A stretch of 64,000 nucleotides of DNA from Limisphaerales bacterium (GTDB lineage: Bacteria > Verrucomicrobiota > Verrucomicrobiia > Limisphaerales > UBA1100): positions 62,001 to 126,000 of the forward strand of contig JACNJL010000041.1 of the NCBI GenBank assembly GCA_014382585.1, given 5' to 3'. Position numbers and translations under genes: made by a program. This document shows, piece by piece, positions 57,964 through 62,139 of this stretch. The number at the start of each line of letters is the position of its first letter. The first letter of the stretch is position 1. The notes beneath the pieces are model-generated. The model was not told the DNA's origin. It saw only the letters and a list, made by a program, of their open reading frames with translations, and did no database searches.

Positions 57964-59106
57964 TCACGCCGGTGCGAGGGCGGCCTCGCGGGCCCATTGG
58001 TCGGCGGCAAGAATTTCATTCAGCGTGGGTTTAGCCACCCAATCGTGTGCATCCATCGTGCGGGTAACGGTGCTGGTGATTTCGGGGAATGAAATTTCTC
58101 CGGCACAAAAAGCGTCCACGGCGATCTCGTTGGCGGCATTGAGTACGGCAGGCAAGGTGCCTCCCACTTCGCCGGCACGCCGAGCGAGGTTGAGGGATGG
58201 GAAACGGTCGGTGTCCGGCTCCTCAAAATCCAAACGGCCAATTTCTGCAAGACTCGTTTGCACACGATCACTGGCGGCGCGGGCCGGATGAGTGAGCGCA
58301 TACTGAATGGGCAAACACATATCCGGCGTGGAAAGCTGCGCAAGCATTGAGCCATCGACAAATTCGACCATTGAATGAATCACGCTCTGCGGATGCACCA
58401 CCACACGCACACGCGGCATTTCGATATCGAAGAGCCACCGCGCCTCAATCATTTCCAAACCTTTATTAAAAAGCGTGGCAGAATCGATGGTGATCTTGCG
58501 GCCCATTTCCCACGAGGGATGTTTGAGCGCTTGCTCCACGGTGATGCCGGCAAACTCGTCCGCGGGCTTTTCGCGAAATGGCCCCCCCGAAGCGGTAAGC
58601 CAAATTTGCCGCACACTTTCCGACGGCTTGCCTTCGAGGCATTGGAAAATTGCTGAGTGCTCGCTGTCCACCGCCAGCACGTTCACGCCGTGCTTGCGGG
58701 CTTCGGCCATTACGATTTCGCCGGCCATCACGAGAATTTCCTTGGACGCCACTGCGATGTCTTTCCCTGCACGAATGGCCGCCAACGCCGGTTGCAAACC
58801 CGCCGTGCCGACGATTGCGATGAGCACGATGTCCGCTTCCGGCAATGTCGCCAGTTTCAGTAAACCCTCGTCACCAAAATGCACTTCCGGTTTGCCGTTA
58901 TATTCATTGGCCAATTCCTTGGCGGCGTCCGGACAATTGATGGAAATTGCGGCGGGTGAAAATTGTTTCGTCTGTTCGCGCAGCAACTTCGAATTGCGCC
59001 CGGCCGCAAGACCCACTAGGCGAATGTCATCCGGCAAATCCTCGGCCACTTTGCAGGTACTTGTACCAATGGAGCCGGTGCTGCCTAATAGAACGACGTT
59101 TTTCAT
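57964..59106 (-). CDS. dxr: 1-deoxy-D-xylulose 5-phosphate reductoisomerase
   Basis: A 380-residue enzyme of the MEP pathway converting DXP to MEP. The N-terminal NADPH site (VVLLGSTGSIGTST), VDSEHSAIFQCL, TASGGPF, HPSWEMGRKITIDSATL and the substrate-loop segments are intact. Its start overlaps the cdsA stop by 4 bp. Confidence 0.97.
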   Translation of the reverse strand: MKNVVLLGSTGSIGTSTCKVAEDLPDDIRLVGLAAGRNSKLLREQTKQFSPAAISINCPDAAKELANEYNGKPEVHFGDEGLLKLATLPEADIVLIAIVGTAGLQPALAAIRAGKDIAVASKEILVMAGEIVMAEARKHGVNVLAVDSEHSAIFQCLEGKPSESVRQIWLTASGGPFREKPADEFAGITVEQALKHPSWEMGRKITIDSATLFNKGLEMIEARWLFDIEMPRVRVVVHPQSVIHSMVEFVDGSMLAQLSTPDMCLPIQYALTHPARAASDRVQTSLAEIGRLDFEEPDTDRFPSLNLARRAGEVGGTLPAVLNAANEIAVDAFCAGEISFPEITSTVTRTMDAHDWVAKPTLNEILAADQWAREAALAPA

Positions 59107-59996
59107 TGGGCCAATCCGTACTTAAGAAACAAATACATCAAGGGGGCATTGAACAGCAGGCTATCGAGCAAGTCGAGCACTCCGCCCACACCTGGGAAAA
59201 ACCCACCGGAATCCTTGAGGCCCGCTTCGCGTTTCATCAGCGATTCTACGAGATCGCCCGCCACCGATCCCACGCCAAGCAACGCCCCCAACGTCAGCGC
59301 TTGCGCCAGCGTGAAGTCACCAAAATGCCCGCCCGCGAAATGCAAAAACGCCCAGCTCGATGCGACTGAAAAAATAATTCCGCCCACAAAGCCCTCCCAA
59401 GTTTTGCCCGGACTTACGCGCGGAATCATTTTGTGTTTACCAATTAGCGACCCCGTGCAGTACGCGCCCGTGTCGCTCATTTTGCTGACGACGATGAAGT
59501 ACAGCAACCACCACGCACCATCGAGGTCTGGAAAATAGCGAATTTTTTGCAACACATTCAGCAGGATGGCCACATAAAAAATACCGAAGAGCGTGGAAGC
59601 CACCGCCGCCATCCCGCGTTCATTCTCCGAAGCGCAAAGTTGGCAAATCCCCAACGCGGGAATCAAACAAATCAAAAACGCCAATTCCATTTCCCCCGCC
59701 AGCGCTGCATCCCCGCGAATCGCCAGCGCCCAAAACACCAATCCAATCAACCCCACTCCCGCTGCCGTGCCCAGTGTGACAAAGGGTGCCAATTCCCGCT
59801 TGCGGGCCATTTGGAAATACTCCAACAACGCAACCGCCCCGAGCAACGCCATGATTCCACCGAAGGCCGCCAACTTCACTTTTTCATTCAGCGCAAACAA
59901 TCCTGCCATCAGTACGCCATAAAGAACCAAACTGCTGCACAAGCGGCGCACAAATGTTTGACCCTTTGAAAGTTTTACCTCCGCGTCATCAGCCAT
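59103..59996 (-). CDS. cdsA: Phosphatidate cytidylyltransferase
   Basis: A 297-residue multi-pass membrane enzyme making CDP-diacylglycerol. About seven hydrophobic segments and the family signature in the C-terminal half (SKMSDTGAYCTGSLIGKHKM then SPGKTWEG) support the call. It sits between uppS (52-bp gap) and dxr (4-bp overlap). Confidence 0.94.
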   Translation of the reverse strand: MADDAEVKLSKGQTFVRRLCSSLVLYGVLMAGLFALNEKVKLAAFGGIMALLGAVALLEYFQMARKRELAPFVTLGTAAGVGLIGLVFWALAIRGDAALAGEMELAFLICLIPALGICQLCASENERGMAAVASTLFGIFYVAILLNVLQKIRYFPDLDGAWWLLYFIVVSKMSDTGAYCTGSLIGKHKMIPRVSPGKTWEGFVGGIIFSVASSWAFLHFAGGHFGDFTLAQALTLGALLGVGSVAGDLVESLMKREAGLKDSGGFFPGVGGVLDLLDSLLFNAPLMYLFLKYGLAQ

Positions 59997-60048: not shown

Positions 60049-60786
60049 CTACAGTTTTCCAAAACGCCGGTGGCGCTTGGCGTATTCTTCAAGAGCGGCG
60101 TGGAATTGGGGCTTTCGGAAATCAGGCCAGAGAGTGGGAGTGACAACCATCTCGGCGTAGGAAACCTGCCATAAAAGAAAATTGCTCAAACGCATTTCGC
60201 CACTGGTGCGAATGAGCAAATCGGGGTCGGGAATGTGATGGGTGTAGAGGTGTTTGGAAACAAGTTGTTCATCAATTTCCGCAGGATCTAATTTACCGGA
60301 AAGAGCTTTTCCTGCGATGGCGCGGGTGGCGTCGACGATTTCCGCGCGCGAGCCGTAACTGAGCGCCAACACCAACGTGAGGCCGGAATTTTTGGCAAGC
60401 GCCGCACGGGTTTTTTTTAACTGCAGCTGCACAGCCTCGGGCAGGCGATGAATTTGGCCGATGACCTCAAGCTGCACGTTGTTGCGATTTAACTCGCCCA
60501 CTTCCTTTTTTAAATAATGCGCTAGGTAACGCATAATTGCATCGACCTCGGTCTTCGGACGATTCCAATTCTCCATCGAGAAAGTGTAGAGCGTGAGATA
60601 GCGCACGCCCGCTTCGGCGGCAGCTTTGATGATCGCCCGGGCAGATTCCGCGCCACGGCGATGGCCTTCCACGCGCGGCATCCCATGCTCGCGGGCCCAA
60701 CGCCCGTTGCCGTCCATGATGACCGCCACGTGCAGGGGCAAAAGCTCCTGCGCCTCGGCGCTCAACTTGGACGTACGCGCGCTCAC
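60049..60786 (-). CDS. uppS: Isoprenyl (undecaprenyl) diphosphate synthase
   Basis: A 245-residue cis-prenyltransferase that makes the C55 carrier lipid. VAVIMDGNGRWARE is the IPP/FPP-binding signature; GHRRGAES, TLYTFSMENWNRP and the C-terminal RTSGEMRLSNFLLWQ complete it. I use GTG 60786, which shares GTGA with the purA stop (4-bp overlap); a longer frame would lie wholly inside purA. This is unusually tight coupling of purine and cell-envelope genes. Confidence 0.95.
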   Translation of the reverse strand: MSARTSKLSAEAQELLPLHVAVIMDGNGRWAREHGMPRVEGHRRGAESARAIIKAAAEAGVRYLTLYTFSMENWNRPKTEVDAIMRYLAHYLKKEVGELNRNNVQLEVIGQIHRLPEAVQLQLKKTRAALAKNSGLTLVLALSYGSRAEIVDATRAIAGKALSGKLDPAEIDEQLVSKHLYTHHIPDPDLLIRTSGEMRLSNFLLWQVSYAEMVVTPTLWPDFRKPQFHAALEEYAKRHRRFGKL

Positions 60787-62051
60787 AAAAACATCGTTTG
60801 GCTCCGAGCCGGCCCCACGGACGCGATAATAATTTTTGCTCCGATGAGTTTTGAAAGCGCCTGCAAATATCGGCGTGCTTTTGGCGGCAGCCTTTTCCAG
60901 TCGGTCACCGCTGAGGTATCGCAGCACCAACCAGGGAATGTTTTATAAATGGGTTTCACGCGCTCGATGTCCTCAGCATCTGTTGGGACGTAGTCGAGCC
61001 TTTTGCTGTCAAGCCGGTAGCCGGTGCAGATTTTAATTTCCGCCAACTTATCGAGGCCGTCAATATTAGTCACTGCCAATTGATCAATGCCATTCACTTG
61101 CACCGCCTGTCGCGTGGCCACCGCATCAAACCATCCGCAACGGCGCGGACGACCGGTGGTCGCACCGAATTCGCGCCCCATGTTGTGCAGCATATCGCCA
61201 ATGGAATCGTCCTCCGTCGGGAATGGCCCGCCGCCGACGCGCGTGGTGTACGCCTTGAGCACGCCGAGCACGTGATCGACGCGATTGGGCGGCATTCCGG
61301 AGCCCGTACAGGAACCACCGGACGTGGTGTTAGACGAAGTCACAAAAGGATACGTGCCCTGATCGATATCGAGGTAGGTGCCTTGTGCGCCTTCAAAGAG
61401 GATTTCCTGTTTGGCATCCAACGCATCGTGAACCATCCGCGTGGTATTCGCCACGAAGGGCGCCAGACGCCGCGCGGCTTTCCGGTAATCTTCGTGGATT
61501 TTTTTGAAGGACAACCCCTTACCACCCAGCGCACGGATGATGCGATTGGCATCGCGCAAGCGACTGCGCAGACGTGATTCAAACTTTTTGGCGTCCACCA
61601 AGTCCGCCAATCGAAGGCCGGTGCGGGCAATCTTGTCGCCATACGCCGGGCCGATGCCGCGCAGCGTGGTGCCGATTCTATTTTTGCCCTTGAGGTTTTC
61701 CGTGCACGCCTCGATGGCGCGGTGGTATGGCATCACGATGTGCGCTTTGTCGCTGATAAACAGGCGGTTCTTCACGTTCACCTTGTGCCGCTTCAACCCG
61801 TCCAACTCGCGCACGAGCGACACGGGATCAATCACCACGCCGTTACCGATGATACAGCGCTTGCGCGCACGCAGGATTCCCGAAGGGATCAAGTGCAGCA
61901 CATATTGCTTTTTGCCCACGCGAACTGTGTGGCCGGCGTTCGCGCCGCCTTGGCTGCGCACCACCAAATCCGCGCGCTCGGTGAGCACGTCGATGATTTT
62001 GCCTTTGCCTTCATCGCCCCATTGGGCGCCGATCAGAATTGTGTTTGCCAT
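60783..62051 (-). CDS. purA: Adenylosuccinate synthetase
   Basis: A 422-residue enzyme that joins aspartate to IMP using GTP, the first step to AMP. The N-terminal GAQWGDEGKGK (GTP loop) and NAGHTV, the GTTLRGIGPAYGDK segment and the C-terminal KTFPGWC region are all present. I use ATG 62051; the longer frame begins in the leader. The leader contains overlapping hairpins (see separate entries). It probably heads the purA-uppS-cdsA-dxr-rseP-ispG transcript. Confidence 0.97.
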   Translation of the reverse strand: MANTILIGAQWGDEGKGKIIDVLTERADLVVRSQGGANAGHTVRVGKKQYVLHLIPSGILRARKRCIIGNGVVIDPVSLVRELDGLKRHKVNVKNRLFISDKAHIVMPYHRAIEACTENLKGKNRIGTTLRGIGPAYGDKIARTGLRLADLVDAKKFESRLRSRLRDANRIIRALGGKGLSFKKIHEDYRKAARRLAPFVANTTRMVHDALDAKQEILFEGAQGTYLDIDQGTYPFVTSSNTTSGGSCTGSGMPPNRVDHVLGVLKAYTTRVGGGPFPTEDDSIGDMLHNMGREFGATTGRPRRCGWFDAVATRQAVQVNGIDQLAVTNIDGLDKLAEIKICTGYRLDSKRLDYVPTDAEDIERVKPIYKTFPGWCCDTSAVTDWKRLPPKARRYLQALSKLIGAKIIIASVGPARSQTMFL

Positions 62052-62054
62052 AAG

Positions 62055-62085
62055 CCAAAAAACAAAAAGCCCCGTCGAGCGGGGC
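62055..62085 (-). terminator. Terminator-like hairpin in the purA leader
   Basis: On the minus strand GCCCCG, loop CTCGA, CGGGGC (62069-62085), followed by TTTTTGTTTTTT and then the purA ATG 18 bases after the hairpin. It looks like a factor-independent terminator but has no upstream same-strand gene nearby to end, which suggests attenuation. Confidence 0.65.
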
Positions 62086-62105
62086 AAATACGATTGCTAT
62101 TTGCC
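62083..62105 (-). promoter_or_regulatory. Candidate alternative hairpin of the purA leader
   Basis: A perfect 8-bp stem (GGCAAATA/TATTTGCC) with a 7-nt loop, just 5' of the terminator-like hairpin on the minus strand and sharing three bases with it, so both cannot form fully at once. Confidence 0.5.
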
Positions 62106-62110
62106 GGAGG

Positions 62111-62139
62111 AGAATGGTGGTCGTTTTGGGCGCTGTCAA
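62111..62139 (-). promoter_or_regulatory. Possible purA promoter
   Basis: On the minus strand a perfect TTGACA (62134-62139) and a 17-nt spacer to CATTCT, a poor -10 box. The start would fall near 62,104, so the mRNA would begin with the first leader hairpin. Confidence 0.35.

Follow-up and report, generated by a model that had tools for sequence, protein, structure and literature searches.

A putative transcription attenuator in the purA leader of Limisphaerales, with the transcript 5′ end as candidate antiterminator strand

Antiterminators of the BglG/SacY (RAT) and PyrR kind are protein-dependent hairpins whose sequence extends into the 5′ arm of an intrinsic terminator, and the antiterminator of pyrG is formed with G residues that are added at positions +1 to +3 without being encoded in the template. 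CTP-sensitive reiterative transcription is the reported basis of pyrG attenuation in B. subtilis, and the same has been inferred in S. agalactiae (PMC4448216). In the pyrC and pyrD genes of E. coli and Salmonella, the GTP/CTP ratio selects the first nucleotide of the transcript and with it the 5′ hairpin (PMC7818426).

Here we present an analysis of the purA leader in a 64,000-nucleotide stretch of DNA from a Limisphaerales bacterium (hereafter referred to as the window). To our knowledge, the control of purine synthesis in Verrucomicrobia is largely undescribed. As anatomy, the reading of this leader as an attenuator is well supported by sequence comparison: an intrinsic terminator lies between a promoter and the coding sequence, and these elements are conserved together upstream of purA. 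On balance, we favour a cis-acting transcription attenuator of purA, and with it of uppS and cdsA, in which the 5′ end of the transcript would provide the antiterminator strand of a stem (P1) and the signal would most likely act at initiation. The attenuator is apparently of a kind already known, with the placing of the putative antiterminator strand at the transcript 5′ terminus as its new feature.

Like pyrG, purA is a nucleotide-biosynthesis gene with a short leader and an intrinsic terminator, and the transcript 5′ end would decide between read-through and termination; unlike that of pyrG, the putative antiterminator strand of purA is template-encoded and covaries, and it has a G-Y-A-A start with no G-run. 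As in pyrC and pyrD, which also serve nucleotide biosynthesis, the purA leader hairpin extends to the 5′ terminus of the RNA and is lost in silico if transcription starts 2 nt downstream. The pyrC and pyrD hairpins, however, block ribosome binding, whereas that of purA faces a terminator, and in place of their C/G start pair the purA leader would use G/A in a putative start switch. With the BglG/SacY (RAT) and PyrR kind the leader shares a hairpin overlapping the 5′ arm of an intrinsic terminator, but P1 lies at +1, and its loop contains no conserved protein-binding sequence in leaders built like that of the window (architecture A, described below). Like the purine riboswitch (RF00167), it is the leader RNA of a purine gene; unlike this and other Rfam leaders, it has a transcribed part of ~45 nt and, in architecture A, no conserved aptamer core. 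The original prediction had found it too short for a known purine riboswitch, and this agrees with Rfam, which at the gathering threshold matched neither the window leader nor any of 17 relatives. Two families retrieved at a relaxed E-value were rejected, both matching mainly the terminator: asX2 (19.5, against a gathering threshold of 70) and Betaproteobacteria_toxic_sRNA (15, against 50).

Overall structure of the window leader

An 8-bp perfect hairpin overlapping a GC hairpin by three bases, followed by a T-tract and the purA ATG, had been predicted on the minus strand, and all of these elements are present (Table 1). The 8-bp hairpin is formed by GGCAAATA (62105-62098) and TATTTGCC (62090-62083) around the loop GCAATCG, and the overlap consists of GCC (62085-62083), which is common to this hairpin and to the terminator hairpin. 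GGCTT separates the T-tract from the ATG. The original prediction had missed both the strong promoter and the fact that P1 begins at the predicted +1. On the minus strand, the −10 element CATTCT is followed by 6 nt, then by GGCAAATAGCAATCGTATTTGCCCCGCTCGACGGGGCTTTTTGTTTTTTGGCTT and then by the purA ATG (62051). The succession TTGACA–17 nt–CATTCT places +1 at G 62104, that is, at the 5′ stem and not downstream of the hairpins. G 62105, which opens the 8-bp stem in the DNA, is thus probably untranscribed; on this prediction the stem in the RNA probably has 7 bp, and the leader 53 nt where ~55 nt had been proposed.

Table 1 Features of the purA leader and of the genes that follow it in the window
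Feature	Position	Strand	Basis
−35 element TTGACA of the purA leader promoter	62134..62139	-	Sequence; TTGAC invariant in 25 leaders of the order
−10 element CATTCT (order consensus TAnnnT), 17-nt spacer	62111..62116	-	Second-position A and sixth-position T invariant in 25 leaders
Predicted transcription start G (+1)	62104	-	6-nt discriminator after the −10 element; conserved complementarity begins here
P1 5′ strand GCAAATA (+1 to +7), putative antiterminator strand, transcript 5′ end	62098..62104	-	Sequence; pairing comparison
P1 3′ strand TATTTGC, abuts and overlaps the terminator 5′ arm	62084..62090	-	Sequence; pairing comparison
Terminator hairpin GCCCCG-CTCGA-CGGGGC	62069..62085	-	Sequence; CCCCG invariant in the 25-leader alignment
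T-tract of the terminator, TTTTTGTTTTTT	62057..62068	-	Sequence
purA, adenylosuccinate synthase, 422 aa, 5 nt past the T-tract	60783..62051	-	Sequence; homologue search
uppS, next gene, co-directional, almost contiguous with purA; start approximate	60049..60780	-	Gene order
cdsA, co-directional, probably in the same transcription unit as purA	59103..59996	-	Gene order

The gene upstream of the leader is divergent. In the genus of the window, the purA ATG lies 1-8 nt past the T-tract; a second promoter would not fit into this space, and purA would therefore need read-through from the leader promoter or from further upstream. Compared with shuffled sequence, the motif of the window is unexceptional: a pattern scan gave terminator-like patterns in the region as expected by chance, and a 151-nt fold at the leader had z = -0.5. 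The case for its reality thus consists of conservation and covariation, not of folding energy.

A ribosome-mediated attenuator with a leader peptide was rejected. No ATG lies between +1 and the terminator in the window, the sole in-frame TTG continues into purA, there is no suitable ORF, and relatives do not preserve P1 as a series of codons. This TTG (62087), inside the leader and in frame with purA, is not conserved in leaders of the loop type (architecture B); a translation start there would place the terminator within the purA coding region.

Conservation of the leader across the order

PurA homologues were found in 39 of 40 related genomes (PurA search), and in nearly all of these the same arrangement occupies the 200 nt upstream of purA. 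In an alignment of 25 leaders (A1), the start G and the A at +4 are invariant in addition to the promoter and terminator letters listed in Table 1. A covariance model (R1) built with the terminator pairs only was searched against the window's own order (Limisphaerales, Verrucomicrobiota; 245 genomes in 116 genera, 128 of the genomes well assembled). It matched 174 of the 245 genomes, 105 of the 128 well-assembled ones and 88 of the 116 genera, with one strong copy per genome, which rules out a repeat element. Among the 171 matches retrieved, downstream sequence was unreadable or unrecognised by the script in a few, and weak matches lacking PurA were discarded; all matches of at least 40 bits with readable downstream sequence run into purA (MANTILVGAQWGDEGKGKII and close variants). 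No strong match lay away from purA in any genome searched. A regulon with other genes was also rejected, the non-purA matches being weak (below ~32 bits) and several of them covering the terminator part of the model only.

The element had been assigned to purA and not to the divergent neighbour. This assignment holds in L003 and L004, where the leader stays with purA despite a different upstream sequence, and an element of the divergent gene is thereby ruled out. The purA-uppS-cdsA part of the proposed gene set also recurs, purA and uppS being adjacent throughout the relatives and usually accompanied by cdsA. Outside the order but within the class, the leader also precedes purA in f65 (L114-L119) and f63 (L121, L252 and L253), two families from other orders; in most of the remaining families it is not recognisable at that place. 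A phylum-wide search returned weak matches only, with the conserved start motif of PurA at 0 of 5 of those loci, and the purA loci of other phyla gave no credible leader match. The purA leader is order-wide and apparently undescribed. A literature search found no description of a purA attenuator, which is weak evidence, since subscription papers were mostly outside its coverage.

Pairing of the predicted transcript 5′ end

In each leader, the first transcribed bases were compared with the stretch up to the terminator 3′ arm. The register was anchored on the G-Y-A-A start, partly a selection criterion of the script, which was present in 162 of 167 leaders; the near-invariance of these letters is thus partly by construction. 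The 5′-terminal hexamer is fully paired in 136 of 162 leaders, against a mean of 60 (largest 76) with swapped hexamers and 11 with shuffled letters. In the aligned relatives both of the originally predicted stems are conserved and P1 covaries, many compensatory versions being present.

The P1 partner occurs in three architectures. In architecture A, to which the window belongs, the partner lies against the base of the terminator 5′ arm and overlaps it (GCAAATA/TATTTGC, GCAAAG/CTTTGC, GTAACT/AGTTAT and GGGCAACCG/TGGTTGCCC). In architecture B the partner is the terminator loop, for example GTAAAT with ATTTAC in CCCCGA-ATTTAC-GTTCGGGG; further pairs are GGTAACC/GGTTACC, TTCAATT/AGTTGAA and GTTTC/GGAAC. 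In the third, found in f63, the partner (GAAATTACC) lies wholly within the terminator 5′ arm. Four leaders (L073, L091, L119 and L190) contain A and B partners together. The relocation of the partner among relatives, together with these dual-partner leaders, thus indicates that what is kept is the pairing of the 5′ end with the terminator 5′ half, and not a fixed sequence.

Pairing is nearly universal from +1 to +6; −1 and −2, into which the helix search was free to extend the stem where pairing allowed, pair at the level of shuffled columns both in architecture A (−1, 45/73 versus 45.8 shuffled; −2, 15/73 versus 14.7) and in architecture B (−1, 35/79 versus 32.0; −2, 30/79 versus 27.2). Such a limit is expected if selection acts on transcribed bases only, and it provides independent support for +1 at the predicted G. 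The P1 loop of architecture A contains almost no conserved letters (at most 0.5 bit of information per position), and this lack of a conserved core argues against an aptamer.

Three further features vary among the leaders of the order. ACCG at +7 to +10 is moderately conserved, in loop-type leaders only. Two leaders of one genus (L185 and L199) have retained the promoter and terminator and have lost the P1 partner. In family f32, L257 has P1 (GTAAAT/ATTTAC) near the predicted start, with no terminator after it.

Folding of P1 and the terminator

Before the terminator 3′ arm is made, the median probability of P1 in architectures A and B is 0.98-0.99 for transcripts from +1 and 0.04-0.09 for transcripts from +3, although loss of P1 on removal of two bases is expected of any A+U-rich helix of 6 bp. 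In architecture A, the outermost G–C pair of the terminator is closed with a median probability of 0.16-0.29 from +1 versus 0.96-0.97 from +3; in the window leader the values are 0.53 and 0.95, a moderate computed switch. Two mutually exclusive structures had been proposed. This applies to the base pairs beside the U-tract, which P1 takes, but not to the terminator as a whole: predicted exclusivity is full in f63, near-full in the loop type and limited in the window type, in which P1 and the terminator have one to three bases in common. Most architecture A leaders share 1-2 nt, within a range of 1-3 that includes the window, and 7 of 73 share none. Exclusion in architecture A is thus weak, and the effect falls on the bottom pairs of the terminator.

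In loop-type leaders the finished terminator forms at equilibrium whatever the start (0.97-0.99 versus 0.98-0.99), its median stability being -13.6 kcal/mol against -1.5 kcal/mol for P1, and the terminator also wins in f63. Since the finished terminator outcompetes P1 in both, antitermination there would be kinetic or would need a helper. The weak exclusion in architecture A and the dominant terminator in architecture B are the reasons why a 5′ stabiliser and a protein helper are retained among the alternatives below.

Proposed mechanism and alternatives

In the computed folds, P1 formation and, in architecture A, terminator closure depend on the two 5′-terminal nucleotides, so P1 is best read as an antiterminator, a role that it would have in our folding model. 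As the predicted +1 is also the first base of P1, the putative antiterminator strand would be the transcript 5′ end itself. This terminal position of the strand, and the loss of P1 in silico when two nucleotides are removed, make it most likely that the signal would be given at initiation. In the proposed mechanism, transcription would start at G 62104, and the 5′-terminal 6-7 nt of the transcript (GCAAATA) would pair with TATTTGC once this had been made. P1 would then hold the base of the terminator 5′ arm, so that the bottom G–C pairs beside the U-tract could not close and RNA polymerase would read through into purA. With the 5′ strand absent or altered, the full GCCCCG/CGGGGC terminator would form and a short leader RNA of ~45 nt would be released.

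The leader may sense purine supply as transcription begins. We tentatively suggest, as the most attractive candidate, a purine-nucleotide signal that would act through the choice between a G(+1) and an A(+3) start. As for the direction of regulation, we infer that GTP plentiful relative to ATP would favour the start at G(+1) and turn purA on, and that plentiful ATP would favour the start at A(+3) and turn it off. Such a choice would be physiologically sensible, since the purA reaction spends GTP to make AMP. That the leader is an aptamer-free and protein-free sensor throughout the order, with the polymerase starting on GTP(+1) or ATP(+3) and the GTP/ATP ratio thereby setting purA read-through, is conceivable but doubtful. 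If this were true, purA would be controlled order-wide with ~45 nt, without an aptamer or a dedicated protein and with the first six RNA bases as the antiterminator strand. Start-nucleotide sensing would extend from pyrimidine to purine genes, and a purine start-site-switch attenuator would span a whole order, with a partner strand that had moved in the course of evolution from one part of the terminator (base, loop or arm) to another. Since the leaders covary in nature, include intermediates with two partners and give a clear prediction of +1, the reading is directly testable in vitro.

Of the alternatives, the one that survives best is that P1 is stabilised by an RNA-binding protein acting in trans, or by a small ligand not yet recognised, as in BglG/SacY- or PyrR-like systems or a very small riboswitch. 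P1 of the loop-type leaders is too weak against the terminator at equilibrium, and A-C-C-G at +7 to +10 in these leaders could be a binding site. However, the P1 loop of architecture A is nearly unconserved and P1 varies with compensation, so that no common recognition site is visible; together with the lack of an Rfam match and the presence of one gene per genome, unusual for a dedicated regulator, this makes such a helper unlikely.

It is distinctly unlikely that there is no switch at all, and that the 5′-terminal stem guards the mRNA or leader from 5′-dependent decay while a leaky terminator sets a low level of expression. Pairing that begins exactly at +1 would leave no unpaired 5′ end, P1 can coexist with a slightly shortened terminator in many architecture A leaders, and the family of L257 keeps P1 without a terminator. 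Yet plain protection would not require the partner to be tied to the terminator, as it always is while moving among base, loop and 5′ arm, nor to be part of the terminator arm itself, as in f63.

Slippage at an AAA run (+3 to +5), with high ATP adding A residues that would disrupt P1 and cause termination, has a precedent in B. subtilis pyrG (PMC4448216), and most leaders contain AAA at these positions; it is nevertheless very improbable, as several distant leaders keep the pairing without an A triplet near the start (GTAATTTC, GTAACC, GGGCAACC and GTTTC). Finally, although terminator-like patterns are common by chance, it can practically be dismissed that the terminator serves a separate short RNA in front of purA or that the two hairpins arose by chance: throughout the order the element, promoter included, is conserved at purA, and in the genus of the window a further promoter for this gene would have no space.

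Other purA leaders in the class

Beyond the leaders described above, the predicted 5′ end of purA transcripts in L228, L229 and L254 (f70 and f88, same class) carries a conserved stem of another kind, GTCCCGA...TCGGGAC, which may be a further leader element of purA. In L223, L222, L240 and L247 (f66, f65, f80 and f90), other terminator-like hairpins of unrelated sequence lie directly before purA, which suggests that attenuation of purA may have arisen repeatedly in the class. The leader of the window's order is also carried by a genome bin titled Akkermansia muciniphila (L261, CAMCWI010000062.1), so this title is probably wrong.
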